A stretch of DNA of 64,000 nucleotides from Emydura subglobosa (Eukaryota; Chordata; Testudines; Chelidae): the NCBI GenBank assembly GCA_007922225.1, contig ML679970.1:26924479-26988478 (forward strand), in the 5' to 3' direction. Made by a program: the position numbers and the translations under genes. The number at the start of each line of letters is the position of its first letter. Position 1 is the stretch's first letter. Below the pieces are notes generated by a model. That model made no database searches. It was not told where the DNA came from and saw nothing but the letters and a program-made list of their open reading frames with translations. This document shows positions 1,035-59,297 of this stretch, one piece after another.

Positions 1035-4000
1035 TCAGAGCTGAGAGAGGATGTGGTTGGCCAGGCTGCAGGTCAGGCCTGTTCCATCCTCCTCCACATT
1101 GAGAGCCTTCACCACGCCATCTTCCAGCACCATGGAGAACCTGGGAGAGATGGGGGGTGTCAGTGCCAGGGTCCCCCCATGCCATCCTCCAGCACAGAAA
1201 ACTTGGGAGGGGTCAGGGTGAAAGCATAACTGGGGGCGTCCCCTCCCTTCCACTCCACTCCAGGGATTCCTTCTCTCCTCCCTCCACCCTGTCTTCCCCC
1301 ACCATGGAGAACCCAGGGAGGAGATGGGAGGTTTAGTGTGGGGACACAGCCAGGGCTCCCTCCCACATCTCCTAGCCCGCGGCCTCTATCATGGAGAAGG
1401 GAGAATTGGGGGTATGAGTGTGGGGATATAGCCAGGGGGGCTTTACCTCTCCCCAGGGCTTCCCACAGAGATGGAGAAGAGGACTCTGTTTCTTTCCCTT
1501 TCCTCTCCCCTCCATACCCAAGCCCACCCCCCGCCCCCGGCAAGGGGAACACTGCAGGGGCCCATAGTTGCAGCTGCAAGGGTGCATCCTCTCCCCTCTG
1601 AGCTCCCAACACTCATCCCCATGCTTATCGCTTGCCTGCACACACAGGGAACCCCAGCTTTCCCACTGGGGGTATCCCCGAGAGGCTACTGGGGCGTAGG
1701 GAGCCCACAGGGGCATCCCTTACCTTTTGCAGCGATTGGTCCCAAAGAGGTCACGCAGGGTCTCCTTGTCCAGCAGCAGCTCTGTAGCCTGGTGGAGAAA
1801 GGGAAAGCAAGGGAGGGGGGGTCAGATAAGCACCTCCAGGCAGAGGACACTGCCGCTCCCCAAACAGGCCTCTGGAGCTGCCTGGTCCTCAGATACCCTT
1901 TGACCCCAACCCAGATCCTGGTCTTGGTGTGAGGGAGGTGGAACTGGAGGGACAGAATCCTCCATGCCTCTAATGGGGGTGAGAGTCCCAGTGCCCCTCC
2001 CCATACCGTCCCAGAGCAGGAACACCCTCCTGGGGGGCTGGATCTGACAGTGCAGGTAGAGAAGGAGCAGGGAACAGGACAGGCACACGGTGGCAGGGGA
2101 AAGAGGACAGGCACAGGGGGTGGGGTGGGCCCTGAATCTGGCTGTGGAGCTGGTGAGGAGGAGAAGGGCCAGAGACTGGCACACAGATAGGTGGGCAGGG
2201 AGATGACAACTGAGAGTGGTCTAGGAGAATGATGCCCCAGCTGGTGCCTGAGGGTATGGATTGGGGGATGGGGGGGTTACCTTTCCAAAGGCTCCAGTGG
2301 GGTCAGCCAGCATCCGCACCTGGGGGGGAGAAAGGGAGAGGGTTAGGAAGCCAGCGGAGAGGAGCCTGTGAGGTAGACAAGGAGGTTAGCAAGGGCCACA
2401 CCCACTTCCAGGACTACACAACCCACAGATGATCCCTTGCATAACCAACAGCTCCTACCAGGAAGGGAAGTGCCTGCGCCTGCCTGGGTGAGTCACCCGC
2501 TGCCTGCGGGGCAGGGCTCCTGTAGCCTTGGGGTTAGGGTGCTACTGGGTGGGGGAGAAAAGAGACTCCTCCCCTCCCCCTGAGACTCAGCACAATAAAC
2601 CTCCATAAGGACACTGCCCAGGGCCTCGACCCCCTCTCGCTGGGTCCCCTAGTCCCTGCCCTGGGTCCCCTAGTCCCTCCCTCTACACTCCCCATTGCCA
2701 TGGTCCCTGGGACTCCCCACATTCCCCTTGGCTGGTGCCCCCACCTCCCGTCTGTGCTCCTCCTGGCCTGGGCGCCATAGCTCAACCCCCACATGTACTC
2801 CCCCTGCCTTGCCCCCCCTTCACTCCCCTTTGTCCTTGGCCATGTGGACCATGCCCCCTCACCCCCAGCTCCTCTTCCCCTGAGCCCCATGGACCTTGCC
2901 CCCTTCCCCCACACTCACCTTGCCCTGGGCCCCATGGGCCTTGCCCCACTCACTCATGACGAAGACGTCGTTCACGGCCAGGCAGGCGATCAGCTCCATG
3001 CCCTTGTCCTTCAGCGCCCCAGCCTGTTCCACATAGCCTGGCAGGTGGGTCTGAAGGGGGCAGGAAGAGCATTAGTCCCCTAGCATGGGGGGAGGGGCAT
3101 CAGACACCAGCCCAAGGACCCCCCCACCCAACCTGGCCCATGGCATCTGGGGAGAGAGTGGGGCAGCCCAGGGATGCGAGGACGGGCTGAGCTCACAAAT
3201 GGGTCCCTTTCCCATTCCACCCTGCGGCTCCCTTGGCCACAGGGATGGGATGGGGGGTGTGTGGGGGATGTTGTAGGAAACGAGTTCTGGGGAGCTGGGT
3301 GGGGGAGGGGACATTCTAGAATGGGGGGTGGGGTGCTCTAGAATAGGAGGTTGCAAAGGGTGGGCGAAGGGATGCTCTGGAGTAGGAGTGGGTTCCAGGG
3401 AAGGGGGGTGTCTGGGGAGGGGGGTGTTCTAAAATGGGTAGAGCAGTGGGGTGAGGAAAAGGGGGCACTGCAGGGGGTCTTCACCCCTCACCTTGGAGCA
3501 ACCAGGGGTGAAGGCACCAGGCACCCCAAAGAGAATCCCCTTCTTGCCCTTGAAGAGTGCAGCCACATCCACCTTGGTGCCAGGGTCCCCCTCGTACACT
3601 TCCACACTGGGCAGCTTGTCTCCGACCTGGGTGGCACAAGGGGTGAGAGCGGGTGGGAGGCCTAGCCAAGTCCCCTTCCACCCACCACCCAGGCAAGCCT
3701 ATGCCAGACCCCCCAGGGCCTCTCCCCTGCTACCCCCACTCTGGAATCCCAATGAGGCCGTTCCTCTTGCCCCAACTATAGCCCTCGCCCCAGCGCTGAC
3801 AGGGCATGACCAGAACAGATGGGTCTCTGAGCAGCTGAGGGCTAATGGGGGGAGTGTCTCCCTTCTCACCCACCCGGCCCGCTTCCTGCCTTGGAACCCC
3901 CCCAGACCCAGAAGGGGGCAAAGACAACCCTCCAGCTGACGCACAAAGCCTGAGATGAGCCTCTCCATGGCTGGGGGGCAGGACAACCCCGTGGGTACTT

Positions 4001-8038: not shown

Positions 8039-8138
8039 NNNNNNNNNNNNNNNNNNNNNNNNNNNNNNNNNNNNNNNNNNNNNNNNNNNNNNNNNNNNNN
8101 NNNNNNNNNNNNNNNNNNNNNNNNNNNNNNNNNNNNNN
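8039..8138. other. Assembly gap of 100 N
   Basis: Exactly 100 Ns, the usual placeholder for a gap of unknown size. It falls in the predicted ESRRA 3' UTR, so no coding exon appears to be lost. Confidence 0.95.
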
Positions 8139-17329: not shown

Positions 17330-17530
17330 GCCCTGCAAAGCTTCCAACCTAAATAGACAAAGGGTGAGAGGGGAAATTAAAGCATAGAAAGGGGAAGGGA
17401 CTTGTTCAAGGTCAGTCACAGAGTTAGGGAGAGAACCCAGGAGTCCTGGCTCCCAGCACCGCCTGCTTTAACCATTTGACCCCACTCCCCTCCTAGAGCT
17501 GAGAGAAAATCCAGGAGCCCTGGCATGCCC
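17330..17530 (+). mobile_element. MIR-like SINE remnant
   Basis: The order GGGACTTGTTCAAGGTCAG, a cAGAGTTAGGGAGAGAACCC stretch, then AGGAGTCCTGGCTCCCAG is the core and tail of a MIR-type SINE. Further tail copies follow at 17700-17860. The TCAAGGTCA at 17406 belongs to this repeat. Confidence 0.6.
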
Positions 17531-18639
17531 TTTGTGCTCATATAGGACTCCCTGGCTTGGCAGAAGCATCCCGAAGGACCTCTCAGCACAGGGGAAGCCC
17601 TAGGCAGGCACCATCCAGCCAGATTGGGGGGTGGAGGGAATCTCTTTAACCCAGCCTCCTCCACAACCTGTTGAACTGGTCTGGAAAGTCCCCTCAGCTT
17701 AGTGGAGTGGGGGGTAAGCAGCAGGTTAGAACAGGGGCCTAGGAATCAGGACTCCTGGGTTCTATCCCCACGCCTGACTTGTGTTAGAGAGTCCACTCCC
17801 TTCTCCTGGACCCTGCTCATATGGCTCCTGGGAGTCAGGACTCCTGGGTTCGTAGGTGTCAGGTCAGAGAACTCAGGACTAGTACTGCCCCCTGCTGGGA
17901 CTGGACCATGCCAGGCACAAGGGAGATGCCTTGGGGTTCCCAGTGGCACCCACAGGGGCGGGGCGGGGCAGGGGGTCACTAGATGGGCAATCCCCTAGAG
18001 CCCAGCAAGTGAACTGAGGCCCTGCCCTAGGAGAGCAACACACACCTACCCAATTAACATGGCACATGATGCCTGACCAGGGCCCCTCCTCCTTGCTGGT
18101 CCAAACCTTGCTCCTTCCTGCCCTTGTGTCTTGGCTCTGCCCACCTCAGCCCCACCCTGTTCTGCTCTGCTCTAGACACATCCTGCCAAGGTAAGAACTT
18201 CCCTATTCTCAGAGCGCTAGAAACTGCCGCCTACTTGCTGCTCCCAGAGCTAAGGAAAAAGGCAATAGATACCTTAACTCTGCCCCTTGGGGGTGAGGCA
18301 AACACCCAGGCACATGGAAAAGGGTTCACAAAGCAATTCGGAAGCTGGGCACTCATGTGCTCCACACTGGGAGAAGCATTTCTGACAATGTCCCCACGCT
18401 CTTGACTAGAACCAGCTCCTGCACAGAGCCAGAGAGAACCTACAGGAGTCCTGACTCCTCACTAGACTATGCTGCCTCTTACATCCACTACTGAGCCCCT
18501 CCCCTCCCTGGGGTCTCTGCTACCCCCATACCTGCTCCATGTTCCCTTTGGGATGGGGTTCCAGCAATCCCCCCTCTGGTGGAAGGTTTGGGGCATCATC
18601 TCTGACATCATAAGGGGCTGCCCAGTAATGCTATAACCA

Positions 18640-38640: not shown

Positions 38641-40490
38641 GTGTGCTCAGCTGCCAGTGGAGGCGGGGGGAGGGGCACCGGGGGAAACCCCCGCCTCGGG
38701 CCACGGGGCCCACTGGAGACGGTGGTTAACCCCCTTCCCGAGGGGCCGAGACGGTGGGCCGAGGGGAGGGCAGGGGTTAACCCCAATCCTAGGGACCCCA
38801 GAGGGGCAGGGTCTTGGGGGAGTCAACCCCAATCTCGGGGGTCCCAGAAACCCCATAGCAGAGTGTCCCGGACTGCGCTGGGGTCTCCCCTCCCCACCCT
38901 GCCCCATTCACTCACCTGGGTGCCAGGCAGATCTACACCCTACCCAGTAGCTGGGCTCCAGGGAGGGACGGAGGGGGGCTGAGTCTCCCGGCCCCTCCCA
39001 GTCCCGGTTGGGTGCGGGGAGGGGGGAGCAGCCTGGTGCACAGCTGGCTCTGTGCCAGCCCTCCCCCGTCCAACCTGTCAGCCGGAGCCCAATTCACTGG
39101 AGCCTTTCAATTAGCGCTGCCCGCCAGCCCCTGGTGCCGCCACCGCAGGCTTGGCAACCGCGCAGGGGCCACCAGCCAGGTCCATGCCCGGCGCGCCAGC
39201 CTGGCCTCTCCCGGCAGCGGGGCTGTAGGGAGCGGGGCAGGAGAGCCGGCTGCAGGGGCAGCTCCCGCCTACGCCACTCCTGGCTCCTGCCAGCAGGGGG
39301 CGCTGTACACCCCCCTCTCACCCCACCCACACTGTCAGTGGTGCTGGAACTAGGGGTGCTGGGGGGGCGGTAGCACCCCCTGGCTTGCAATAGCAATAAC
39401 AAACACCACACACATGGTTTCCATGGTTTCCAGCAGCAGCACCTCCACTACACAGCCGTGTTTGTGTCTCACACACAGCAAGGTTCGTTTTCTCCAGTGG
39501 GGGCGACAGACAGACAGACAGACACACGTGGTGTCTCTCTTACACCCCTGTCTCACAGGTTGTATCACACACACACACTGTCACACCCCATCGCACACGC
39601 ATCCCAGTGTCCGGCTCCCGTACACGGACTCTCTCACACACACGTTGTGTCACTCACATTGTCACACCCCATCGCACACGCATCCCCGCCTCTGGCTATC
39701 ACACACACAACACTGTGACACACACACGTCTCTCCCACGTTTGACACACTCCAGATAAAGCCACTGCCGCCCAGCCGGTCCCCCCCGTGGCCCGTGGGGC
39801 ACGGGGTCCCGGGGAAGGGGATGGAGTGATTCCCGCCCCAGCATCCCCCTGTATCACTCACTCGCTAGCAGCAGCAGCAGCAGCGCCGGCTCCTCCCTGC
39901 GCTGGGATCCCGCAGACAGGTGCAGCCGCCTCCCTCCCTCACCACCCCCACAATGGGGCAGCTGCTGGCCTGCCCCCTGCAGCCCTGCTGGCCCCCCGCG
40001 CTGCCAAGAACCTCCCCCGGAGCCTCAGGCTGCAGGAGCTGCAGACACACGGGGCGGGGGCTGTTAACCCTTCGGGGAAGGAAAGCATGGAGGGGGGGAG
40101 CGCAGGGAGAGGGCATAGGCTGGTATTAGCACAAGGTACCCAGGGGACAGCATCCCTTTGCCAAGGGATGCTGGGATGATTTTTTGGGAGGGAGGGGTTC
40201 CCCTTGCTGGGATTCCCAGAGCCCCCCCCACACACACTGCTCCCTGGTACTAGAGGAGGTGGCTGGACTCCTGGGTTCCATTCTCAGCTCCTCCACGTCC
40301 CCTGTCTGTGCCCATTTCCCCCCCTGCAGAATGAGATGGGGGCACTGTCCCTCCGGCTGCAGACGCCCAGGTTCTGTGGGGGAGGAGCGCTGTTGTGACG
40401 CTCTCTCACCCTGAAGTGCTGGAGACCTGTACAGGAGGGGGTGTCTCTAGCCCAGGCTAGCCTGAGGCCCCCCCAAGACAGAAAGAAGCA
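38641..40490. other. KCNK4/CENPF-like intergenic interval
   Basis: No coding exon is seen. It holds a (CAGA)n tract at 39508-39523, a duplicated block of about 85 bases (TGTCACACCCCATCGCACAC at 39578 and 39660) and a possible hAT-type fragment. Long frames here come from CA-rich and CT-rich repeats. Confidence 0.6.
39336..39447. mobile_element. Possible hAT-type MITE fragment
   Basis: It starts CAGTGGTGCTGGAACTAGGG and continues with GGGTGCTGGGG / GTAGCACCCCCTGG, as in widespread amniote hAT MITEs; the right end is unclear. Confidence 0.4.
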
Positions 40491-40512
40491 GGCAGGAGCT
40501 GAGGAGAGGAAT

Positions 40513-40518
40513 TTTATT
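40513..40518 (-). terminator. Polyadenylation signal of the CENPF-like gene
   Basis: TTTATT (AATAAA on the minus strand) about 700 bases after the CENPF-like stop, just before the transcript would reach the KCNK4 upstream region. Confidence 0.6.
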
Positions 40519-41213
40519 GGGGGGGAGACAGAGTTACATACAAACCCCAGAGCTGGAGGGACGGACTCCCTGCTCTGCACCACCCCCTGTCCGAGGCACT
40601 TTGGCTGAGCCCCTAGTCGCTGGGGTGGGGGTACTCAACACAGCAGCTCCTCCGAACTTTGGGTGGGTGACATGACCCCCTCTGATTCCCTGAGCCATGA
40701 AGAGAGGGCTTAAACCCCTTCAAGCTGTGGGAGGAGGGCAGAGACTCCAATTAACCCCATTCATTGAACCCCCCCCCCGTTCCTCGTGGGGGGCACTAAG
40801 CAGGTCTGAGCCCCCTTCTTTGTGCCCTCCCCTCCATGTGGCATGTGGGAAGCACCCACAACTTTTAGCACCTTAAGAAAGCCAGGTTGTAAAATAAGTC
40901 CCAGAGGGTTATACGTGTCCAGACATGGGGGGGAAGACTCCCCTTTTCAGTTAGAGGGTGCCACATAGCAGCTGGGGAAGCTTCAGAAAGCATCAGGGAT
41001 CTATGCAGATTGGTGGGGGGCGGGGGGGGGAGGAAGGGGTCACATTTCTTCCGCCCAGGCTGGAAAGAGAATGGAAAGGAATGTGAAACACAAAAAATCA
41101 TCACCTTGCCACCCCCAGTGCAGAGATTCAGCTGCCTCTGGGGTGGAGCCCAGGGGTGCAGAAAGGGGTTGCTCACCCAGAAGTATAGATGCTCTCAGAT
41201 GCTGATGCCTATG

Positions 41214-44200
41214 TCAGGCTCGGGGATCCTCCTCTGGCTCAGCTTTGGGGGCCAGCGGGGCCAAGGGGGTGCTGCCCAGGAACCCCCTCCGAAGGACATA
41301 GGGGCAGGAAGGGCCAGAGGGGATATCGGCAAAACCTGTGGGTAGGGCACAGAGCGAGATTGAAGCTGAGTAACTTGCGGGGCCTGGGCTGTGCTAGGGG
41401 TGAGTCCCCATCCCGGACACCTGGGTCCCAATCTATCACTCTCCTTCCAATGCGGTGCTGGGGGGAAGGGCAGCTGTCTGGGGAGGGATCACAGCCAGAA
41501 TCAATACTGCCCCCCCCCCCTCCTTGCAGAGCTCAGAGTTGCTGGGCAGGATGGAAAATCAACGGGGGGAGAGGGGAAAGAACTCCCAGCCATTAACCTA
41601 GCCGAGCCTGGAGGCAGGGCCACTGGCTGCAGGTGGGGGGTGGTGCACAACTCTCATGTAGGGCCATGGGCACAGTCTGGGATACCTCCCCACACACCTA
41701 TAACACTAACCCTCCCAAACTGGGGCTTGCCCTGCCTGGCACCCCTCTGCTCTGTATCTCCCCCTGAACCTCCTCCACTCAATATCCCCGAGCCTCTCAG
41801 CCTGCAGCTCCTCTGCCCCACAACCTGCCCCACAGCACCCCCCAAATGCTGCCCACACAATAACATCCCATGTGGAGAACAAGGTTCCCCCAGACATGGG
41901 CAGTGCCCCCACCATATGCCCGCTTCAGCCGCCCACCACGCACCTTTCATGACGACCTCGGGCAGCCCATAGGGCTCATACTGAGTGTGGTCAAAGGCTG
42001 CTGAGATGAGCTCCTTGTGGTGCCCGCCCTCGGCCAGCCCCTCCGTCTGGGTCTGGGCATCCTGCATCGCCGGCCAGGGAGTCTGGAGAACTGAGGAAGA
42101 GAGAGGGGGACTCAAATTCGGGGTCTGTCCCCAGGACTCCCCAATGCCTGAGCCTCCACTCATGATCTCCCTTTTCCCAGTGACCCTTCAAACTACCAGG
42201 CCTCCCCATGCCCCCAATAACCCACCCCAAACACCTGGGGCTCTCTCCTCCCCCTGGGATCCATGAAATTGCCCAGGCCCTCCTCCCAAACCTGCGGGCA
42301 GGTGCCAAAGGCAGCGCACCCCATTGATGCTCAGCAGAGCCAGGGGCAAAAGCCTCGATCTCACCCCCCCAAATCGAGGCAAAGTTCTATGTCCCCCCCT
42401 TACCATAAGCAAGGTCCCCCTGGCCTCTGCCCCCTGGGGTCACTGGTGCGGGGGGGGATGAGGTCCCTTGGTGTTGCCCGTCACCAATGACAGATGCAGC
42501 ACATTCTGCTCGGCCCTGGGACTGCCACAGCGCCAGCTCAGCCCGCAGGGCCCGGTTCTCCTGCAGCAGGCGGGAGAGCGCCACCTCCTGCTGGGGAGAG
42601 GGGGGGGGGCAGAGACAGGGGACAGAACCTGTTACCCCAGTCGGAGCAGGGGTTCAGCCCCAGAGAACCCCAGCCTGGCCTTGGGGCAGAGGGGTGAGGG
42701 GGCGACACCAAGACCAGTTTGGTCCAAGATGAAGCTCGCGGATGACAGATGGCTCATGGGGGGGGTGGAAGGGGTGGGCTGGGGCATATGAAGAGTTAAG
42801 GGTGTTTTGAAAGGGGTGGGGCAGTCACATTGTGGGGGGCTATTGGGGGTGGGGGAACCCCAAGTTTGGGGGGGGTAGAGGAGCCCTGAGTTTGGCAGGA
42901 GAGCCCTGGGACACGAGTTGGGGGGATGGGCCAAGGAAGCCCCAGGTCGGGGAGGGGAGTCAGGGGGTGCTTGGGATGGAGGGAATTGGGAGAACTGCCC
43001 TCCCCAAACTCACTCACCTGCTCCTGCAATCCAGCCTGGCCCGCTGGCTTCTGCAGCTCCCACGGGGCATTCTGCAGCTGTGCCCGCTCGCTGTGCCAGG
43101 CCTGCTTCCCCATCAGCAGCGAGGTGTCCACTGGGGCATCCCAAACCCTGCCAGCCACAGCCAGCTCCAGGGCACCGAGGGGCAACTCCGGGGGACAGGG
43201 CAGCTCGGGAGGGGTAGGTGAAGGCAACTTGGAGGGGCCAGGCTCTTGGGCTATGGACGGCAGCTCAGCAGGGGTGGCGGGCAGTTCAGGGGGGCTGGGC
43301 TCTGGGATTGTGGGGGGCGGTTCAGGGAGGCTGGTGGCAGGTGCCTCAGGGGGTCCAAGCTCTGGGATTGTGGGGGGTGACTCAAGTGGACCGGTAGCAG
43401 GTGTCTCAGGGGGCCCAGGCTCTGGGACTGTGGGGGGCGGCTCAGGGGGACCAGTGGGAGGTGTCTCCCCACCCAGCAGTGCCCACAGCCGCCCCACCTC
43501 GGCCTCCAACAGCCCACGGGCCCGTCCTGCCTCCTCCAGAGCCCAGCCCAGCCGCTCCAGCTCCTGCTCCCGCTCGTGCCCCTCGGTCAGCAGCTCTGCC
43601 ATGTGGTGGCTCTGGGTCTCACAGGCCAGCGCCAGCCTCTCTGTCTGCCACCCCAGGATCTCCTGGAGCCGCTGCAGCCGCTCCTGGGCCTCAGCTGCCT
43701 GGGCCTCTGCCTCAGCCTTGCCCAGGGCCAGGGCCCTCAACTCCCCCTGCAGCGCCTGCAGCTCCCCCACCTCCTGAGTCTCCCCCGCAGGCAGGCCAGG
43801 CCCTGGTGCCCCCCAAGCCAGAGCCTCCACCTCTGCAGCCAGGGCCTGCAGCTCTCCCCTTTCCCCCTCGGCCCGGTCGGGCCCCAGCGCCCCTTGCAGC
43901 TCCTGGGCTTCTTCCTCCTTATGTTGCATGGCAGCATCCTGGGACAGAGGCATCTCAGTCAGTGCCCGGCGCTCTCCAGCCTGGTCCTGGTTGCCCTGGT
44001 GCAGCTGCCAGCAGGTTTCCGGCAGCCCCTTGTGCAGGCTCTCAGAGGCAGCCAAGCGCAGCCCCAATGCTTCAGCCCTCATGGCCTGCAGCTCTGGGGG
44101 GCGCCTGGCTCCCGGCACCACATCCCACTGGGCACCAGCCTGCCCACAGCTCGGGGAACCTGTGCTGAAGGACCTGGGGGGGAGGCAAACAGAGCAGAGA

Positions 44201-47200
44201 GGGATCAGTTAGGGCGACAAGGTGCCAGGGGGCTTCCCTGGACCCAAATTGGGCTGGTGCAGGGCAGAAAGAGACCCTCAGACCTCCCCCAAGACCCCCC
44301 ATAGTCCCCGAGAGACACCAAGCCCCCCCTTAATACCCATATTCCCACATACACCACGCCTCCCAGCCCTATTCACCTGCTCCCCTGCAGATTCCCCTAC
44401 CACAGCCCCTGGGCTGCCCCCCCCAAACCCAGAGGACCAAACACCCAACCTCATGCACTGCCCCCCCTTTCGGCATCACCATCTCCCCAGGACCCTGTCT
44501 TCCCTGCCCCAGCCTCACCCTGACCCCACTCCCCCATCTCACCTCTGACCTTCCCAGCTGCCCCTCCTTTCTCAGGCACCCGCTCCAGGCAGCTACAGCT
44601 TGGGGGGAGGGGGCACCAGATCCCCCCAGGCCATGCTGGGGACAGGTGTGTGAGCTCTGACCCTGGCTCGGGGGGGGGGGGGGGGGGGGGTGTGTGGAGA
44701 ATGAGATATGGGCCCCCACCAGGAGGCGCTGGCTCCACTCGCCCATTAAACAGCCCCCTCTGGCCTTTGGCAGTGACACGCCCCTCACCTTGTCTGGGGG
44801 TGTTGGGGGCATGCAGGGATGTCCGTCTGGGGGCCCTGCTGCTCCAGCTCCTCCTGATGGCGCCGCTCCAGCTCCACCAGCCCCTGCAACAGAGAGAGGG
44901 TGATGGGCATCATGACACCCGCCGGAGCCCGGAGTGGGGATGGAGGGGATCCAAGGGACCCCCCTGTGTTGAGGGGGAGGCTCAGCCTCAGCCCCGCTTG
45001 GAAGTCTGTTCTGGGCTGGGGAAGCACTTGGGTGTGGGGGGGCTGTGCCACAGCAGGGGGAATGGTGGGGTGGGGGGCCCAGGAGGGCGGGGGTCTGTTG
45101 GGAAGGAGGGGCTGGCTGGAGGGGGAATTATACACTGGGAGGCAAGGGACTGCGGGGGGGATGGGGTGAGGGGCCAGGGGGCGGGGGAGAGGGCTGTGCG
45201 AAGTGGGGGGGATGGTGCTGTAGCAGGGGGGCTCCCACCTGCCGGTGCTCCCTCTCCTGCTGCTCCATGCGGCGCTGCACAGCCCCCGCTCTCTGCCTCT
45301 GGCTCCTCAGCGCCTCCAACAGCTGCTGCACCCGCCGTTGCAGGGCACTCACCTGCAGGGGGTGGGGGGAGGACTTGTCAGTCTTGGGCAAGCCACTGCA
45401 TGGCTCCATGCCCACCATGCAGAACCAACAGACCAACCCCCTACCCCGCAGCGACCAGGGGCTAAACCCCTCACCCAGCCCCTCCTGATGCACCAGCCCC
45501 GTGTGTCCTGCTGGTTCACCACAGGGGGGAGCAGCTGCAGCAGGAACATGACTGGGGGATGAAGGGGGGGCCTGAGCCTTTCCCCCACCAACCACTTTGA
45601 TTAGCACCTGCCATGTCATTCAATTAAACAAGGGTCCCTGCATGAGCACAGTGTCCTGGTTCTGGCCAAGAAAGGATGGCTGGATAAAACAGAGTGAGGC
45701 ACATAAACCCCATTCCCACACCCGTCCCGGCCCCACTGAAACCTGCATCCTCCGCTCCTGGTCTCCCCCTCTGATCCCTGCAGCCTGCCTGCTCCAAGGA
45801 CTAGAGCCCCACCTCGTGGCCGCAGTCAGCACCACACCCTGCAGCAGCTCCACAAGCCCCCAAGTGGCCCTACCCACCCAGGCTGGGGCTACCCAGCTTC
45901 CCTCTCTCCCACGCTCACCTTAGTGACTGCCTGGTCCCGCTGCTCTGTGCGCTGGGCCAACTCCCGCTGCACTGACTGCAGTGCCCCCCTCAACTCCCAG
46001 GCCTCCATGTCATGGGGGCCGTGCCCCGGCCCTGCGGTGGAGAGGGTAGGGGGGAGAAAAAGCAGTGCTGCTCCCCCACACCGTACCAGGGATTGCCCTC
46101 AATGGCCTGGGATCACTGCCCCCCGGGGCCCTTCCACCATTGTGGGCCTTGTATGGTCTTCCACCACTGGCAACAAGGACTGGCTTGGCCCTCCAGCCTT
46201 CGAGCCCAGTCCTCCCCGCTCTCCCCCCGCAGCCCTTGGCTCATGTCCCCACTTCCCATCATCCACACCACCACTGGACACCAGCTCCGGTTCTCTGCTG
46301 TGCAGACCCTGGACTCAGCGCCCTCCCCACCCCTGTGTAGGTCTTGAGTCAGATGCCCCAGTTAGACACCGACCCCAGCTCCCCTGCAGTCCTCAACCAG
46401 CTCTCTGCACTGCCCCGAACCCCCCTAGAGCAGACATCGGCCCTGTGGGACCACGTTACCCAGAATGCTTCACTGCCAGCAACTGAAGATCAGCCTGGAT
46501 CTAAGGAGTGAGAACAGGCAGGTTCCCCAACACCCCTTCCCTGGCCCAGCCCCTCCCAGGACCCACTCAGAGCCCCACTATAGGGAAGGCAGGTTGCGGG
46601 GCTGAGTGACCTGCTCACAAGGAGAAACTGCCATTGCTAGGTTGGGCATGAAGAGGTTAATTCCCCCCTCCCCTGTCTCGCTCCAACCTCACTGAAATTT
46701 TTACCTTCATTCTCCTGGCTAGGCTCCTTCCCAGGGGGTGGGATTCCCTGATTGTCCTCTGGGGGGGCAGGGCCCCCAGGAGGGACACTGTGCCAGGCAG
46801 CCCCTCGATGCAAGGGTGGCTCCTCCCCGAATGTGGGGCTGCTGGGCTGCAACTGCAGAAGGGGAGGAAAGGGGGTGAGGGCCTTTAATAAATGTATGGG
46901 GCAGGGGCTGCAGGTCAAGACAGAGGGGCACCTGCAGAGGTAGAAGTAGGAGAGCCCAGGCCTGGGCTAGCAGGGGGCTGTGGGTTGGGACTGAGGGACC
47001 CTGGCAGAGCTGGGGTGGGGGATAACAGGGGCTGTGGTTTGGGATTGAGGGACCCTGGCAGAGCTGGGGGAGCCTGGGATGGGAGGGTGGAAGGTGGAGG
47101 CAGGGTGAGGGGCACGCTCTGTACTCACCCTCATGCTGGGTGTTCCGGGTCTGCTCTCTACTCTGGATTTTTGCCTCCAAGCACCCAGCTCAGCCCCTGT

Positions 47201-48565
47201 GGGAGACAGACCTGGTCAGCGCTGCAGGGCCGATGACCAGCTCCCCAAGGGGTCTGACTCTCCCCAGTCCCCTTTCCCCCACAATTTGCCACGAACTCTA
47301 ATCCCCCATCATCCCCTCCCTCCCTGCTGCCCTCCTCACCTTCCTCCTGGGGGGGTGCAGGTCCAGGGGGGCCCCAGCAATGAGTCAGGGGGGTGCTCGG
47401 CCGCAGGTTATCCAGCTCTGCCTGGCACCTGGGGGGACCCCAGAAAGAGATGAGTGCTGCTTGCCCAGTGCCCCTCACACCCAGCCCTGGTGCCCCCAAC
47501 CTCAGCACGGCCCAGCCCAACGCTGCCCAATTCAACCCATCCCCCATAGTTGCCCTGGCGTCCCCCACCCCAACTGTGCCCAACTCAATCTCATCGCCCC
47601 CTGGTGCCCCCAACACTGCCCAACTCAACCCATCCCCACAGTGTCCCCCACTCCAATACCACAAACCGCTGCCCCTCATCCTTCTCTGGGCACCATCCCC
47701 CCACTCTCACTCTGCCCCCCCTGATCCTGCCAACACTGTGCCTCCAGAGCCCCTCACCTTCCCCTGGACACCCCCAACATTGGCCCCCCAGATTCCCCTG
47801 GGCACAGTGACCCCTGGTGCCCTCCACCTGCTCCTGGACAGCACCCTGTTTAGTGCCGTCCCCCCACTTGTCTCAGGCAGTCCTCGGCCTCAGCGCCTGG
47901 CGCACAGCCCTCTAGCACCCCATGATCCTGCTGGCATCCCCATTCCCTCCACGCAGCCCCGGGCAGGTACCTCCGCAGCTCCTCCTCCAGCTCCTCAATG
48001 TGCTGGGTGGCGCGGCCCAGCTGCCCCTCCAACCGGCTCAGCTGCGCCCCCTTGGCCTGGAGCTCCCGGCTCAGCTGCAGGCGCCCGCGCTCCAGCTGCT
48101 CACAGGCCTCCGTCAGGTCCCGCCGCTCCTGGGCCAGCAGCGCCCACGTGCCACGCTCCTCCTCATGCTACGAGGGACGGGGCGTGAGTGTGGGAGGCCA
48201 GGGGAGAGTGGGCACGAGCTGGGCATGGGAACACCAGCTCTGATCTGGCCCAGGGCGGGGGGGATGGCTGGCTAAGGGGCGAGGGCAAGGGGTAAATGCC
48301 CACTCAGCCAGAGTGGCGCTTGGCCTGCTGGGAGCCGTGGGCCGCCCTTCCTGGGTGCCACCCCCCCCCAGGGTGGGAACAGGTGTGGGAGGCACCCATG
48401 TACCTTCTGCCTCTGCTTGTGCAGCACAGCCTCCAGCGTGTCCAGCTGCACCTGCTTCTGGACCCGCTCCTTCTGGGCCCACTCCAGGCGCTGCTCCAGC
48501 TCCCTCACCCCCTGCAGTGCCCGGGCTGGCAGCCCCTCCTGCCAGGCCTCGCCCGGCCAGCTCAT
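41214..48565 (-). CDS. Short CENPF paralogue, 12 coding exons, 838 aa
   Basis: Coiled-coil protein homologous to centromere protein F at both ends. Exons: 48565-48404, 48167-47971, 47428-47340, 47196-47129, 46852-46705, 46031-45919, 45352-45239, 44883-44789, 44173-43018, 42590-42485, 42090-41944, 41335-41214; all GT-AG, all phases close. Exon 1 (54 codons) starts MSWPGEAWQEGLPARALQ, matching CENPF MSWALEEWKEGLPTRALQ, with the same exon length by my recall. Exon 2 continues the N-terminal coiled coil. The 1,156-base exon 9 is mostly coiled coil plus a proline-rich tandem repeat. Exons 11-12 carry GLPEVVMKGFADIPSG then CPYVLRR, the CENPF C-terminal block. The protein is about a quarter of CENPF length and ends PRA, without a farnesylation CaaX box. 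CENPF acts at kinetochores, nuclear envelope and on mitochondria via Miro; the role here is unknown. Confidence 0.85.
43240..43480 (-). repeat. In-frame minisatellite encoding a proline-rich repeat
   Basis: Three to four copies of a unit of about 60-63 bases inside exon 9 of the CENPF-like gene. They encode variations of PPPTIPEPGPPETPATGPLE, a 20-21 residue Pro/Glu/Thr repeat, followed by less regular Pro-rich sequence. The unit length is a multiple of three, so copy number can change without frameshift. Confidence 0.75.
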
Positions 48566-48699
48566 GGCGCCCTCTCCCCCAGCCAGGCCTGGGCCCCTCC
48601 AACCCCTGCTGCTCCCTCCAATGACAGACGCAGCTGGCATGCAGCCGAGATTAGCGAGGATTAGGCCTCACAGCCAGTCACTACCCAGCCCAGAGAGAG

Positions 48700-48905
48700 C
48701 CAGCGCGCTAGGGGGCGCTGGGCTGCAGGGAGTGGGGCAGAGGGCGCTGGGCTGCAGGGAGGGGGAAGGGGCTGCACAGGGGGCACTTGGGAGTGGGGCG
48801 GGAGTTCAACGGGGGAGGCTGGGCCACAGTTAGTGGGATGGGGGCTGTGCAGGGGGTGCTGGGCCGCAGGAATCGGGGCGGGGGCTCAGTGGGGTGCACT
48901 GGGGG
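48700..48905. repeat. GGGCGCTGGGCTGCAGGGAG minisatellite
   Basis: Degenerate repeats of a unit of about 35-50 bases just upstream of the CENPF-like start codon. A CCAAT box is at about 48616. The promoter of that gene presumably lies between here and 49350, but no TATA box or clear CHR element (TTTGAA) was seen. Confidence 0.55.
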
Positions 48906-49984
48906 GCTTCACTCAGCCCCAGGAGATGCTGTTTTTCAGATGGGTGAGTCCATTCCAGGCTCCCCCTCCCTTCCTTCAGCAGTTTCCCTTGCAGACAGGA
49001 CTCGCCTTCCCATCCTGCCCTATAGTCTTGTGCAGTTATTATGTGACTCCAAGCACCTGCCCCCCCCCCCCCCCCCGGGGGGGGAATAGAACCCAGGCAT
49101 CCTGCCTCCCCCTGCCCTCTGCCTGACACCAGCAGCGCACACCCCCCACCTGCACTCAGAAGCAGCCAGGCCTTGTTAGCCTCCCTGCAAGCCAGGCTGG
49201 AGCAGCTCGAGACAGCCGCTCGTTTTCTAGAGGCTGCCAGAACAATGGGCAAGGTCCGGGCGGCTGGAGTGAGCCCGCCTGCGTGTGTTTGTCGAGGGCC
49301 AGCAGGCTCGGGGCGAAGCTGGCTCTCAGAGAAGTGACGGCCAGCCGTGCCCATTCTGATCCTCTCCCCTCCAAGAGCAAGATAGAAGCCAGGAGTCCAG
49401 GCTCCAGCCCCCATTACAATCGCTGCAACTGCATCAATCTAGGAGTCACGAAAGTGTGGGGGGTACATGTGGAGAAAGGGGCCAGCCTCAGGCAGGCAGA
49501 GAACCCAGGCGTCAGGGGCAGGGACCCATCTGGGGAGGGCAGTGGGAACAGCCTCAGAATCCAGGAAACTGGGGCAAGAGCCAGTCCTCAGTGACCTCTA
49601 ACCCCTGCGCCTGGCTGAGCCGGATCTAGCGTCAGCATCTAGCTGATGGGTGAATCAGCTTATGGAGGGATTAGCAGAGGCGAGCAGGGTAACAGCACCT
49701 GCCCTGGGGAGAGGGACAGTGCCACTCCTGCACAGCAAGGGACAGAAGGGATTAGGATGGGCAATATAAAGGGGGCAGAGGTGGAATATATACAGGGCAG
49801 CTATGAGGGCAATGCCTCTCCCAGACCAACAGGCAGCTCCAGCTCCGTTGGCTTTCTCCCTCTCCCCAACCACCTATGCCGGGCCAAAGTGGGGGCAGGT
49901 TGCTGATTAACCCCATAAAATGGGGGGGTTAAAGTCCAAAGAGTGAGAGCAGAGACAGAGTCCAGTGATACACATTACTTGTGC

Positions 49985-50150
49985 CAGCCCAGGGTGGGGG
50001 AAACTACCTGCATGCAGTCTGTAGCAGAGCTGGGACCAGAACCCAGGAATCCTGGCTCCCAGCCCCACCCTTACTCTACCCACTAGACCCCACTCTCCTC
50101 CCAGAGCTGGGATAGAACCCAGGAGTCCTGGCTCCCCGCACCTACAAAAG
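49985..50150. repeat. Tandem MIR-like tail units
   Basis: Two successive copies of a unit of about 70 bases: AGCTGGGAnnAGAACCCAGG, AnTCCTGGCTCCC, then CTACCCACTAGACCCCACTC. The same unit occurs singly at 17440, 49385 and 55530-55640. It derives from a SINE tail and lies at the GPR137 3' end. Confidence 0.65.
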
Positions 50151-50184
50151 CCACACACACAGGCTGTGCCGCAAACACAAACCC

Positions 50185-50190
50185 TTTATT
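50185..50190 (-). terminator. GPR137: GPR137 polyadenylation signal
   Basis: TTTATT (AATAAA on the minus strand) about 530 bases after the GPR137 stop codon. Confidence 0.75.
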
Positions 50191-50721
50191 GAGGCTGGAG
50201 CAGGGAGACAGGACAGCACCAAAGCCTGGGGGTGGGAGGGCAGCGCTGGGGAAAGCTCTGGTAGAAGCCAGGAGCTGGCGTGCATCCTAGGGTGCGAACT
50301 GGCACCTGAGCCATGGTCTGGTGCCCCACTACAGCATGTGACCCCCACAGGGATAGTTCAGCAGCAGGCATGAATCCAGAGGGGGGAGCTCCCAGCATGC
50401 AATGCTCCAGCACATTCGGGGCAGGGGGGAGGAGACAGTCCATTCTTCCTTTGTCCCATGGCCCAGATGCTGGGATCCCTGCCCAAACTGGCCTGTGCTC
50501 TCAGACACTGCAGCGTGTGGGGTGGTGCCAGAGCCATCCCTGTGCCATGGGGAAGGGGGCACTGTTTGGTTGGGGGGTGTTCAGCTGGAGGGGCACAGAG
50601 CTGGGCTCCCCCCAATTCGTATGCTCAGAACTCATCTCTCCAGCCCTCCGCCCTTCACACCGTTGAGTTCTCTGCCCCCATTTCACTAGTGTCCTCCTGT
50701 GACACACGGGGGTGGGCGCAC

Positions 50722-53700
50722 CTAGGTCTGCGGGGTGGAGTAGAGGCTGTGGTGGTGGCTGGCCTGCACAGTGACCTGGGAGAAGAGCAGGGGTGTTGTG
50801 GGGGGCTGCCCCCCCAACCAGTCCGGATCCCTTCCAGTCCGGCCAATGGCTCCATACCAGCTGCCGCTGCCCAGTCGGCCTATCAGGCTGCAAGGCAGAG
50901 AGGGGGGTTACATGGAGTGGGGGATCCACCCCCCAGAGTCCCATCCCACTTCCCAGAGCAGGGTCCCCCACATCTGCCCCATCCCAAGCAGAGCCCCACA
51001 GGCACGAATCTAGAGGGGTTAGCTCCCAGCATGCAGTGCTCCAGCGTCCTGGCAGCCAGACCCCATGGGGAGTCAGTTCCACCCAGAGGCCTTAAAACCC
51101 AGTGGCGTGGGGAGAACCCCGGGGACTCCTTCCCCACCCATTTAGTCTCCCACGGGGGGGAGGGGTTCCTGCTGCTCTCCCTGGGGAAGGGCTTGCTCTT
51201 GTACTGCCTGGGGGGACTGGAAGCTCAGGGGGAGTTACCTGCTGCCCTTCCTGCGGGGGGGCCCCTCGCTCTCGTACTGCCCGGGGTGGTCGAAGAAGTA
51301 GGACCGGGAGCCCCCGAGCTGCCCATTGAGGATGTGGTTGGCGCTCTGCTGGGGGGAACAGGGAGGAGAAGAGAAAGGCTATTACTTGGGGGGAGGGCAG
51401 GTTGCTCTTCACAACTCCTGGGTGGCTGCGATCCACCAGGCTGACCCCCAGGACGAGGGCTGTTCTGCTGCGGAGGGGGGTAGACCCCCCTACCAGACTG
51501 AGGCCTGCGACACCACGTGGGGGTCCCCGCCCCAACTGACCAGCCCCCCACCTGCTGTAACACTCCTGCCCCATAGGGGAGGGGGATTCCCCATAACGTA
51601 CAGCCCAGCCGTGCCATGGGGAGGGGGTTGGAGGATCTCCCATTGCTGTGGGGCACATGGGTGGGTGGGGCTTCCTGACCCTAGGGCCTGGGAGCTGATA
51701 ACTCAGATCCCAGCAGGCCTTGCCTCTTCCTCCCCGGCCTGGCGTAACAAGTGGGTCTACAAACCCACCCTGAGGGCGAGCGTGGGGGCAAGCAGGGAGC
51801 GCACGCTCACAACGCCTCACAACAGCGGGGCCAGCCACCGGAGCCAGCAGCCTGCTAAACAAGAAATGTGCGGGCCCCAAAATCAAGGGATCAAAATTGG
51901 CGTGTTGGGAATTAGGCCCAACTGGTGGACAAAATACCGAGGGGCTGGGCTATCCCAGAAAAGACTTTGGGGATGGGGGGAATCAGGGTGACAACACCTG
52001 CGCACTGAGAGACAGGAGACCAGGAAAAGAAGCTGGCTGCCTCCCCCCCATCTCCTGGGACCCTGACATCCACCATGACACCACTGGACCTTTTCCATCC
52101 TGACCTTAGGAGATGCTCTCATCACAGACAGGGACCCAGAGGACACCTCCACCAGCTTTACTAAATGGACAGACTGTCACCCCCACCCCATGCGTCCTTT
52201 TCCTTCCCCCACTTGTTTCTTCTCTTTCCTCTCCCTCTCCTTTTGCCTCCTGTCTAATGGGAGGCTGGCCCAGCTGGCCAAGACTGCATATTTTGCAGTG
52301 CTGCTGTCAGCCTGCGACCAAAGAGGCAGCTCAAAACGGTGGCCAGAGCAGCCCAAAGCTGGCAGACGTTTGCCGGCCCCCGGAACAGCTGGTTGGACCC
52401 TGGGCCCAGCCTTTCTCCAGCAGTGAGGCTGCAGGTGAGAGTCAGCCCCACAGAGGCTGTGATTCTCATTCGGCCGTGAGTTTTAATTTCCTGTTCCTGT
52501 TTGTCTTGTTTTGTTCCCTAGGGACCAGGGTGGGACCTCAGCAACAACATCAGCTCCAGCCCGTCTGAACTAACTTCTGCTCTCCTCAACGCCACAGTTA
52601 CTACCCCTTTCCTGACTCCTCAGAGGCTGTCAGACGGGTTTTGCCCTTCCACAAACGCCCCAGCGGAGGGAAAGGGCACAAGGGCTGGAGTACCAAACAC
52701 TTCACATTTCAGACACTTTCCCTGATTTGCCTCCTTTCTCTGTATCTGCTACCCACGGGTCAGAGGGCGTTTCATGGGGCTAAGCAGACCCCGGTCTCTG
52801 TACTCAAAACCCCAATTAAACCTTGTTTAACCTGGTTAGTGCTGGACAGTGCCAGGGTCACGCCAACACTTTGGACTCTCTGTGTTCAGTTATTCCTTCA
52901 AAATTAACCCAGCAGGCCCTCCTGCGGCGTGCTCCCCCAATGCCGGGCTCCCTGTGCCCCACCCACCATGTCCTGCGGGGGGCGGTGCACCCGGAAGAAG
53001 CCCACCAGCAGGGCAGTCGGCAGCAGCTCCCACACAAAGAGGATGAGGCCGAAGACAAGGTATCCTTGGTCCCCCAGGTCAGTGATCAGATCCGCCTGGA
53101 GGGGGGGAAGGGGAGACACAACTCAGATTCCTTTGGGGGTCTGGCCCCCAACCCTGGGCGCCCCCTAAATCTTCACCAGCCAGTGGGGGGCTCTGCAGAA
53201 GGGCTGAGGAGCTGCCCCCCAAGGACAGAGAGTAAATGGTGGGAGAGAGGTTGTGCCCAATTCCCCCCAACAGAGAGCTAGGGACAATCAATGTCCCCAT
53301 GGAGGGACAGCCACCCCCCAATCAGCCCCAGCCCCGTCATCTCCACCTCCTCAAGCTGCTGCCCCTGCCTCTCTATTGGTGCCACCCACCTCCCTGGACG
53401 TCCCTCCGCTGTCCGCACTGACCTGGTCCGAGACATTGTACCAGTCGTAGTCAAAAGAGTCCAGCCGGGTGTGGGAGCTCAATGCCAGGGCCACCAGGTT
53501 GTAGCAGGCACGGCTGGCGTGCAGCAGCACCATTGTGCCACCCATGGCCGCCGTCTGGCACACTGTGGTCCCCTGGGTGGGGAGGGGGAAAGACAGACAG
53601 ATGCAGGCTCCATCCCAGGGTCCCAAGCTCCACAACCCAAACCCACAGGACTCCCATCAGCCCCGTGGGCCCCCCCCAAACCCACCCAGCTAGCACAGTT

Positions 53701-56103
53701 TCTACCAGTGCCAGATGGCACCCCAGAGGGGAAAGGCTCCACGTCCCATTTCCCACCCTCAGGGGTCAGGTCGGAGCCAACATTCCCCAGAGGTGAAAGG
53801 CCCCATATCCCATTCCTAACCCCTGAGCCAGCCAGTCCCCCAGCTCTGGGGCTGGATTGGGGCTAACGCCCCCTAGAGGAGAAGGCTGTGTCCCACCTTG
53901 GCCTGCAGGTAGAGGCTGGTGCTTGGTGAGCCGCGAGCCACGAGGCAGAGGCAGAGCGCCAGGGTGATGGCGCCCAGCACAAAGAGCGAGTCGTTGATGA
54001 GGACCCGGGTCAGCACCACGGCCCAAGGCTCAGCCCGTCCCAGCCGCACCACGAATGCGCAGGCCACGTTCACTGCCAGGAAGAGCAGGCTGGCACCAAG
54101 GCAGGCCCCCCGCACCACCAGCCTGCAGGAGAGACTGAGACTGGGGGGCAGCCTGGAGACATGCTGCTCCCCTCCTGCCCTGGGGGGGAAGATCCACTCC
54201 CCAGATCTCTTCCATTCCTGTCCAGCTCCCCGATCCCTCTGCACAGCTTCCCCCCACCCACAGTGCAGCTCCCCCACTCTCCTCCCCCCACAGGCCTCTG
54301 CCCCTCCCCCACCCCATCTACCTCTGCCCCTCCCCCATCCCTCCAGCTTCCCCCTCCTTCCCCCCAGCTCAGTGCCATACAAGCCCCTAAGCAGCTTTGC
54401 TGCTGGGCTCAAAAGATGCTATTGGGGGGGCGGGGCGGGTGCCCACGCATGGAGCCAGCCCAATCCCGCTCCCCCCACCAGACTTTCCTCCAGCAGTGCC
54501 CAGGGAAGGGGGTGGGGGTGGAGCACGGAGCCTCTATGGCCCATTAGGCCAAAGCCATCAGCACCAGGGAGCGCAGGGGACGGAGCCAGGGTGGGGGTGA
54601 GAGGGCCCTAATTCAGTGAAGTGACTTCTGGGTTTTATCCCTGGGTCTGGAAGGGGAGTGGGGTGAAGTGGGTTCCAGGGGGGGCCTCAGGACTCCTGAG
54701 TTCTATTCCCTGCTTGGGGGTGTGGAGGGCCTTTAAGTGACTGCATGGGCATGGAGTGGGGGAGTTTGGGGGGATACTCACAGCCCTTTGGTCATGTTCG
54801 GGTGGTACTTAGCTTTAGCCTTGAATACCACCTAGGGAGAGGGGGCAGAGTTAGGGTCACAGACAAATGGACACCCCTCCACCAGCACATGCCCCTCTCC
54901 ATGTGGCCCCAGGAGGCAGAGTCCAAGGGAGATGAGTTGCAAAACATCAACAAATAGAATACGTCCCCCAACTCCTGCCACCCACAAGCCAGACCCAACC
55001 GCGCTCAGAGCACACCGGTGCCAGCTGGGGGTGCAGCAAAAATTGGGGGGACAGCAGCAGCAGGGGCAACCCCCCATGTGCAGCTCCTCCCCCCTGAAGG
55101 GACAAAGGCTGGATCTCTGGGGCCTCTTCAGCTCCCCCAAAGACTCACCACTGAGGCCAGGATTTCACTTAGAGGGGAAAGACCCCATATCTCATTCCCC
55201 ACCCCTCTAAAAAAGCCAGTGCACCCACCCCCACCTCATCTGGATATAGACTGAAACCAGCGCTCTCTAGAGGGGAAAGGCCGCATCGCCGATTCCCCAA
55301 CCCATAGCTAGCTAACTAGTCCCCCCCCCGTCCCCCTGCACACTTGCTACCCCAACTGATCCTCTCTATGGGGTCCTCTCTATGGGGTAGGGACAAGGCA
55401 CTCAGCATACTAGGACACAACTTTCTGGGATCTGGATGCTCCTATGACCCCATCACTGGGGTTTCTGGGCACCTCCACAAATATTTATGCAAGCAGCATA
55501 TGAAGGGAGTGGGGACTACTGGGTGCAGGGTGGGAGCTGGGAGTCAGGACTCCTGGTTTCTGGCCTCAGCTCTGAGAGGGGAATTGGGTCTGGTGGGTTA
55601 GCGTGGGGATCTGGGAGCCAGGACTCTTGGGTCCCATCCCCAGCACCAAGCAAGGAAAACTGAAGCCAGGTATCCAGAAACCCAAGTTGATGGCTTTTAC
55701 CCACAGGGCTGAGCCCACTCATCCCCAACCTGATTACCTGGGCAAAGTAGAGGTTCATGAGTGTCAAGGTGAAGAACTGAAGGCAGACGGGGCAGCAGTA
55801 GAGCAGCCAGTAGAGGAAGGGACCCAGCTGGTTGGCCTTGAGAGTGTTCTTGAAGTAGAAGGAGAAGAGTGTGGTGCGGAGGGTGGCCCAGAGCAGGCAG
55901 AGGAAGAGGAAGACAGTTTGATAGCTGAGCTTCTTGTGCCGGTAGAGCAGCACCAGCCACAACTGGGCATAGACCGAGAGGAAGAGCAGGGCATACAGCA
56001 CCGTGTACAGTGCCGTGAGCCCCAGCTTGACTGCTGGGGGGAAGGCTGGTGTCAGGCGCTCAGCAGGCACGATCACTGTCAGGTTGCTGGCAGCTTGTTC
56101 CAT
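50722..56103 (-). CDS. GPR137: GPR137 seven-pass membrane protein, 7 coding exons
   Basis: Orphan 7TM protein of the GPR137 family; the paralogue GPR137B is a lysosomal regulator of Rag GTPases and mTORC1. Exons: 56103-55738, 54831-54782, 54122-53897, 53572-53423, 53095-52967, 51348-51239, 50887-50722; total 398 aa (human 396). Exon 1 has a luminal N-terminus with an NLT sequon and TM1-3, including [20 protein letters not shown] and [20 protein letters not shown]. Exon 3 carries TM4-5, exon 4 the [15 protein letters not shown] loop and exon 5 the last TM ([16 protein letters not shown]). The C-terminus ends [11 protein letters not shown]. Exon 6 has a CAGCAG tandem acceptor. A 5' UTR acceptor lies at 56116-56117, so the first exon is upstream in the promoter shared with BAD. 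Confidence 0.96.
53700..53895. repeat. Tandem units 'agaggggaaaggccccatatccc' in GPR137 intron 3
   Basis: Units of about 65-75 bases share CCCCAGAGGGGAAAGG, CCCATTCCCACCC and CCAGCCAGTCCCCCAG. Related units occur at 55155-55320 in intron 1 of the same gene, so this is a dispersed family expanded locally. Confidence 0.55.
55155..55320. repeat. Second cluster of the same GPR137 intronic unit
   Basis: Two copies read TAGAGGGGAAAGACCCCATA and TAGAGGGGAAAGGCCGCATC, each followed by an ATTCCCCAACCC-like stretch, as in the cluster at 53700. Confidence 0.5.
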
Positions 56104-58083: not shown

Positions 58084-59297
58084 ATGTTTCGCATCCAGGA
58101 GTTCCAGGACGAGGTGTTCCCGGGGCGAGAGAAGGAGCCGCCTGCCCCCCCCGAGTCGCAGAGGGGGGACACGCCCGGCTTCAAGCAGCCAGGCACGCCC
58201 GCAGCTGGTGAGACCCCCCACCCGGCCTGGGGGGGGGGGCATCCCTGGACTCAACATGCTCGTTCCCCCCTCCCCAGAGCCTTGTCCATAATGTAGGTCA
58301 CAGACCTTTCCATGGGGCAGAATTTCTGCCCCATATAACACCCAGCTGGGGGCATTCCCCCCTTACAGCTCCCCCTCCACGTGGGATTCCCAGACACACA
58401 CACACACACACACACCCAGTTGCAAGGGCTTCCTGACCAGACCCTGACAGACCCCGGAGAAGGGAGGGGGGGGTCAGTCCCTGAACTCAATCCCTCCGCT
58501 TCTTCCCCACAGAGCTGCGAAGCCGCATTGGGTCAGACCCCCCATCTCTGGAGTCAGAAGTGCAGGATGAGCCAGGCGGGGCATTCTTCCGGGCACGCTC
58601 ACGCTCAGCCCCCCCCATCCTATGGGCTGCCATGCGTTATGGGCGAGAGCTGCGCAGGATGAGTGATGAGTTTGATGTGGCGCTGCAGGTGAGATGGGAC
58701 AGGGGGCAGAAGGACAGGGGATGACCCCAGGGGGAGGTGAAATGGGGGAGAAGGGAGGGCACAACCCCTGGGGGCAGCTGGTACACTCAAACCACCAACC
58801 CGATGAGCTCCCCCACCTTCAGGTCTCAAGCCCAACACCTGTGGTTGGCTGGCACTGGGAAGGGACCCATAAGATGCTGGGGGAGGATTTAGGGAGGCTG
58901 AAAAGACCTCCTTACTCACCTCCGAGGGATCCCTCCAGCACCCACAGGGGGTGGATCTGCCCTTCTCTACTTCATACACAGCGTAAGTGGGGTGGCACTG
59001 CCCAACTGGCAAGGGGCATGAGTGCCAATCAGACAGAGGCGGCTGGCTGGCCCACACAATAGTTCTTGCTATGGGGGGTGAGCATTTGCAATAGGAGGGT
59101 CCTGATGAGTGGAGGCATTTGCAGTGGGTGTGTCCCTGTTGGGCTCTCACTGTCTTCCTCCCCTCTAGGTGCTGCCACGCCCCAAGAGCGCAGGTACAGC
59201 ATCCCAGCTGCACCGGGGAAGCAGCTGGAAGGAGATCTTCCAGGCCTGGTTGGGGCACAGACCAGCCCGTGATGCCCCCCCAAAGAGCCCCAAGTGA
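58084..59297 (+). CDS. BAD: BAD, BH3-only apoptosis regulator, 3 coding exons
   Basis: BH3-only BCL-2 family protein that binds and neutralises BCL-XL and BCL-2 at mitochondria. When phosphorylated it is held by 14-3-3 proteins. Exons: 58084-58207, 58513-58688, 59169-59297; GT-AG, phases close; 142 aa against 168 in human, shorter in the N-terminal half. It starts MFRIQEF (human MFQIPEF). Exon 2 holds the 14-3-3 site RARSRSAPP and the BH3 helix [18 protein letters not shown], with both the R-x-R-S-x-S and RRMS phosphosites. Exon 3 starts [13 protein letters not shown] and includes [10 protein letters not shown]. The N-terminal RHSSYP-type site of mammalian BAD is not visible. It is head-to-head with GPR137 and tail-to-tail with the aldo-keto reductase. 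Confidence 0.95.

Follow-up and report, generated by a model that had tools for sequence, protein, structure and literature searches.

The minus strand of the window, the 64,000-nucleotide stretch of contig ML679970.1 of the turtle Emydura subglobosa that we analysed, carries in the order of transcription GPR137, a gene for a shortened relative of CENPF (hereafter the CENPF-like gene), KCNK4, ESRRA and PRDX5; BAD lies on the plus strand beyond GPR137. The CENPF-like gene is intact and genuine. It runs on the minus strand from an ATG at 48565-48563 to a stop codon ending at 41214, exactly the limits given by a first-pass annotation made from the letters alone. Its twelve coding exons (Table 1), likewise proposed there, join with closing phases across introns that are GT-AG in 11 of 11 cases. 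The spliced frame encodes 865 amino acids (aa), 27 residues more than the 838 of that annotation, with zero internal stops. Read in the remaining two frames, the spliced exons contain 19 and 28 stops, and shuffling the exon nucleotides (n=500) gives a mean of 19.1 and a minimum of 7. The start codon has a purine (G) at -3. An AATAAA at 40513-40518 on the minus strand, about 700 nt past the stop and the sole AATAAA on that strand within 39000-41214, is likely the poly(A) signal of the gene. Exon 1 has no CpG island (observed/expected ratio 0.33), in contrast to the islands found in the window near 4.7-5.4 kb, 15.2 kb, 56.9 kb and 61 kb. A read-through transcript shared with GPR137 or KCNK4 is not favoured: GPR137 has a likely AATAAA at 50185 and the CENPF-like gene its own at 40513. 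Further exons of a longer CENPF inside the introns are unsupported, with a Pfam scan of the unspliced strand yielding pieces of the end domains only (E <=0.01), and a coding sequence of 3,000 residues is ruled out because the gene spans just 7.35 kb.

Both ends of the encoded protein belong to the CENPF family, which agrees with the first-pass reading of exon 1 as a CENPF start and of exons 11-12 as the CENPF C-terminal block. Ten Pfam families are listed for the full protein, and two of them, the two CENPF end domains, score above their cut-offs: CENP-F_N (PF10481) matches aa 1-127 at 118.8 bits (Pfam cut-off 37.7), covering only positions 1-127 of the 304 in its profile, and CENP-F_C_Rb_bdg (PF10490) matches aa 807-846 at 68.5 bits (Pfam cut-off 21). 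The next match, to SPATA24, stays under its cut-off (21.3 bits against 27) and probably reflects coiled-coil resemblance. When the unspliced minus-strand stretch 40501-49502 was scanned, with matches taken at E up to 0.01, each end domain appeared in two pieces, the breaks falling at most 2 residues from the predicted exon edges; taken singly, three of the four clear the cut-off, and the one from exon 11 fails (19.5 bits against 21). Aligned without gaps to an assumed human CENPF sequence, the N-terminus is identical at 62 of 126 positions (about 49%) and scores 309 against at most 75 in 200 shuffles; the C-terminal block is identical at 19 of 25 positions of the assumed human sequence. Among solved structures of relatives none matched the C-terminal piece, and the 27 matches to the N-terminal piece (best E 0.038) include no CENPF. 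The domains, the 7.35-kb size and the KCNK4/ESRRA locus (see below) thus sustain the earlier proposal of a distinct, shortened family member that keeps both ends and has no CaaX box: the gene is almost certainly a CENPF paralogue. Among the matches listed by literature searches, nothing was seen that describes a second CENPF gene in vertebrates. Nematodes have two CENP-F-like proteins, HCP-1 and HCP-2, and several members of the family in one animal are therefore not unprecedented.

Judged by its residues, the block that Pfam names 'Rb-binding' is the mapped Miro-binding motif, a point that we add to the first-pass reading of the C-terminus. The Miro-binding site of human CENPF was mapped to 2977-3020 (PMC4538849); within it, G2988 and F2989 are reported as essential for Miro binding (PMC6428352), D2991 is predicted to form a salt bridge and ILR 3001-3003 a strand (PMC10897228). 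The CENPF-like protein has G826, F827, D829 and VLR 839-841 at the equivalent places with identical spacing, so that the CENPF pattern of a pocket phenylalanine after a glycine, an acidic residue at +2 and a strand at +12 is present in it. The phase 1 intron 11 lies in the codon of G826, and the junction of intron 16 and exon 17 of mouse CENPF is reported at or next to the equivalent G2871 (PMC6428352). With these correspondences the CENPF-like protein is probably a Miro binder. Rb binding, at which the name of the Pfam family hints, was rejected: the protein has no LxCxE motif, and CENPF-Rb binding was reported as undetected in yeast (PMC6428352). The candidate motif is comparable to those of the Miro clients TRAK1/2, MYO19 and MTFR1/2/1L (FADV, FADI and LADI motifs; PMC10897228), which are likewise short and place a phenylalanine or leucine in the pocket; MTFR2 is published with FADI letters identical to those of the CENPF-like protein (PMC10897228). 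It differs from these other clients in its CENPF-type coiled-coil start, and beyond the motif no domain common to them was found. A TQT triplet at aa 790-792 (42044-42052, minus strand, exon 11) precedes the Miro motif by about 35 residues. It resembles the core motif at which the dynein light chain LC8 binds; as a lone three-letter match it is likely due to chance, and dynein light chain binding through it was rejected.

The likeness to CENPF (also CENP-F, mitosin or LEK1) comprises a CENP-F_N start, a CENP-F_C_Rb_bdg block near the end, coiled coils between them, an intron at the same glycine and a TREK/TRAAK-type K2P gene as neighbour. The differences are these: the protein has 865 aa against 3,210 in human CENPF (PMC6028960), an acidic N-terminal block, a proline-rich repeat in mid-protein and KCNK4 rather than KCNK2 alongside. 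Moreover, several parts of CENPF were not found. The leucine-zipper domain PF10473 is absent from the full-length Pfam scan, in which most hits with E over ~0.1 are filtered out, and the unspliced minus strand gives no hit to it either at E up to 0.01; a sub-threshold match to it (15.3 bits, cut-off 34.5) falls inside the N-terminal block. There is no CaaX box, the C terminus reading EEDPRA, and no KEN box in the 865 aa. A basic C-terminal tail is also missing: 23 residues follow R842, and aa 777-865 have a pI of 4.8. In CENPF the microtubule sites are two highly basic regions, the first 385 and the last 187 residues, and the vicinity of the C-terminus holds Bub1- and Nup133-binding regions that precede the Miro motif (PMC6028960); CENPF is further reported to interact with Nde1 (PMC7199848). 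Exons 10-11, read by eye with no profile used, contain no recognised counterpart of the Bub1- and Nup133-binding regions. The first 127 residues have a pI of 5.4, compared with 8.5 in the corresponding stretch of the assumed human CENPF sequence, and the whole protein has a pI of 4.9. Heptad signal exceeds the 99% shuffle threshold at aa 57-126, at aa 232-301 and in parts of 463-567, and the middle of the protein combines coiled-coil stretches with the proline-rich repeat of about 3 units of 20 residues. A leucine-containing, helical-looking stretch is seen by eye where exon 10 begins, upstream of the C-terminal block; the heptad scan stays below threshold there. CENP-E, described as a large coiled-coil corona protein and possible distant CENPF paralogue (PMC6028960), was also compared: the Pfam matches of the CENPF-like protein include neither a kinesin motor nor the CENP-E family.

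Table 1. Coding exons of the CENPF-like gene and features within it (positions in the window).
Feature	Position	Strand	Content
Exon 1	48404..48565	-	aa 1-54; CENP-F_N match begins; start codon 48565-48563
Exon 2	47971..48167	-	aa 55-119; coiled coil, remainder of CENP-F_N block; heptads aa 57-126
Exon 3	47340..47428	-	
Exon 4	47129..47196	-	
Exon 5	46705..46852	-	
Exon 6	45919..46031	-	second coiled-coil stretch (aa 232-301) begins
Exon 7	45239..45352	-	
Exon 8	44789..44883	-	
Exon 9	43018..44173	-	1156 nt; acidic coiled-coil stretches, then proline-rich region with repeat
Repeat in exon 9	43286-43467	-	60-bp (20 aa) unit, ~3 copies
Exon 10	42404..42590	-	
Exon 11	41944..42090	-	3' end encodes GLPEVVMK and first base of G826 codon
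Intron 11	41336..41943	-	phase 1, splits G826 codon
Exon 12	41214..41335	-	GFADIP..PYVLRR block, then 23 residues to stop; no CaaX box

The residue match argues strongly for a protein that would sit on the mitochondrial surface as a Miro client. It would form a coiled-coil dimer through the N-terminal block and the stretch at aa 232-301; F827 would enter the ELF pocket, which is hydrophobic and belongs to the first EF-hand domain of Miro1/2, and the VLR strand would be added to the Miro GTPase1 domain. The N-terminal block would join a partner, and mitochondria would thereby be tethered to that partner. Alternatively, the protein may act by competition with other Miro clients (TRAK, MYO19, MTFR, CENPF), which is possible because a single pocket is reported to serve all known clients (PMC10897228). 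Since it lacks farnesylation, KEN-box and leucine-zipper parts and shows no recognised part for kinetochore or nuclear pore, the protein would be relieved of much of the mitotic work of CENPF.

One form of this proposal makes the protein a mitochondria-microtubule tether like CENPF itself, with the N-terminal block binding microtubules and the C-terminal motif holding Miro. The coupling of mitochondria to microtubule tips by Miro and CENPF is published (PMC4538849, PMC6428352), and the match to the first 127 residues, which is kept, lies in the region of the first 385 that holds a microtubule site of CENPF (PMC6028960). Set against this, the basic C-terminal site is gone, the N-terminal Pfam profile is matched over a mere 127 of its 304 positions, and those 127 residues are acidic where the assumed human stretch, by its pI, is not. 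The acidity of the N-terminal block and the loss of the basic tail make continued microtubule binding doubtful, and the tether can be entertained only tentatively. A kinetochore or nuclear-pore protein, that is, a mini CENPF for germ-cell divisions, is quite unlikely. Family membership, the leucine-containing stretch that opens exon 10 (short of the heptad threshold) and the lack of a CpG island around exon 1, a trait shared by many tissue-restricted genes, would be in keeping with it; the lack of a leucine-zipper match, CaaX and KEN speaks against it, as do the Bub1 and Nup133 regions, for which reading without a profile recognised no counterpart.

The neighbouring genes bear on the origin of the CENPF-like gene. 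KCNK4 occupies about 30.8-37.2 kb on the minus strand with at least 4 recognisable coding pieces and an Ion_trans_2 match; compared with solved chains, four joined K2P exon pieces, part of a longer protein, reach 287.9 bits for KCNK4 but 266.3 for KCNK10 and 261.2 for KCNK2. The last exon of the ESRR gene, likewise compared with solved chains, scores 69.9-71.9 bits with ERR1, at best 68.4 with ERR2 and at best 63.8 with ERR gamma. PRDX5 is supported by a match to a solved chain of that name, and the BH3 stretch of BAD at 58485-58721 (plus strand) matches solved BAD peptides. The gene upstream of the CENPF-like gene we take to be GPR137, in view of its hydrophobic segments; it has no Pfam match on its strand, and the plus strand at 48601-53702 has none either. 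The first-pass placement between KCNK4 and GPR137 is confirmed on the KCNK4 side and presumptive on the GPR137 side. The locus is of the KCNK4-ESRRA (human 11q13) type and not the KCNK2-ESRRG (1q41) locus of human CENPF. The genes named as deleted in a case with 1q41 and three other deletions comprise SMYD2, PTPN14, CENPF, KCNK2, KCTD3, USH2A, ESRRG, SPATA17 and more (PMC6503150). Relative to KCNK4 and ESRRA, the CENPF-like gene accordingly holds the place that CENPF has relative to KCNK2 and ESRRG. We assume that the list of deleted genes follows map order, human CENPF and KCNK2 adjoining in the same direction. KCNK2/KCNK4/KCNK10 and ESRRA/B/G are families of the 2R whole-genome duplication. 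From neighbours paralogous to those of CENPF we infer that the CENPF-like gene is very probably the 2R sister (ohnologue) of CENPF and not a later copy. On the duplicated KCNK/ESRR block nothing usable was found among the literature matches listed.

In human the putative ohnologue has apparently been lost from the corresponding locus. An alphabetical list of genes there names BAD, CCDC88B, DNAJC4, ESRRA, FERMT3, FKBP2, GPR137, KCNK4, MACROD1, NUDT22, PLCB3, PPP1R14B, PRDX5, STIP1, TEX40, TRMT112, TRPT1 and VEGFB, and a CENPF-like gene is not named in that list (PMC6283835). For a human segment of 95.6 kb, BAD, KCNK4, GPR137, ESRRA and CCDC88B are named (PMC3547038).

A later, lineage-specific partial copy of CENPF, placed here long after the genome doublings and then shortened, would be compatible with the strongly shortened middle. 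It is nonetheless unlikely: it needs a chance landing beside the paralogue of KCNK2, on the same strand and upstream (human orientation assumed), for which four gaps flanking KCNK4 or KCNK10 among some 20,000 gene gaps give, by our estimate, about 1 in 5,000. In addition, introns are present, one of them at the CENPF position, and a retrocopy origin was rejected for that reason; the N-terminal identity of about 49% to the assumed human CENPF sequence in turn suggests age. That the gene is a decaying, unexpressed relic is very unlikely: the lack of a CpG island at its start would fit, but 865 stop-free codons where shuffled exons give about 19 stops, 11 of 11 GT-AG introns, the retained published Miro contacts and an AATAAA of its own, besides the likely one of GPR137 upstream, all speak against decay. 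Hardly any credence can be given to the gene being the only CENPF of this genome, shortened and moved, since it lies at KCNK4/ESRRA and not at KCNK2/ESRRG and several parts behind the published kinetochore work of CENPF are missing.

Taken as a whole, we somewhat favour an ohnologue of CENPF that may act as a coiled-coil Miro client as the best explanation. The fuller history, to which we give even weight for and against, would be that an ancestral vertebrate pair of CENPF genes arose by 2R and that the second, beside KCNK4, gave up most of the kinetochore machinery, specialised as a Miro client on mitochondria and was lost in humans. Several points weigh against these proposals. Motifs that bind Miro are said to diverge strongly and to be difficult to predict from sequence (PMC10897228), to which it can be answered that the candidate motif falls within a domain match of 68 bits; the microtubule-binding ends of CENPF are described as highly basic (PMC6028960), in contrast to the acidic N-terminal block of the CENPF-like protein; the ESRRA call leads ERR2 by just 1.5 to 3.5 bits; and the human locus lists may be incomplete, as that of PMC3547038 is, because it omits PRDX5.

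Mice with the F2872A substitution in the Miro site of CENPF are reported to be viable and fertile with no apparent phenotype (PMC6428352), which raises the question of the role of the mitochondrial CENPF pool. If our proposal is true, a paralogue that keeps the Miro site, minus much else, amounts to an evolutionary experiment on that role and a natural separation of the two functions of CENPF, and animals carrying the CENPF-like gene could reveal what selects for the Miro contact. Should the loss of this gene in the human lineage be confirmed, it could help to explain the apparent dispensability of the contact in mammals. CENPF would also join KCNK2/KCNK4 and ESRRG/ESRRA in a duplicated block.

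Beyond the genes, Rfam at gathering scores gives no match in the window, and 100 consecutive N mark an assembly gap at 8039-8138 between PRDX5 and ESRRA. The 21-base word GAACCCAGGNGTCCTGGCTCC occurs, with up to 3 mismatches, 10 times against 0.07 expected, at 17433-17851, 40258-40278, 49089-50135 and 55540-55634; this dispersed repeat presumably resembles one found in turtle and crocodilian genomes.

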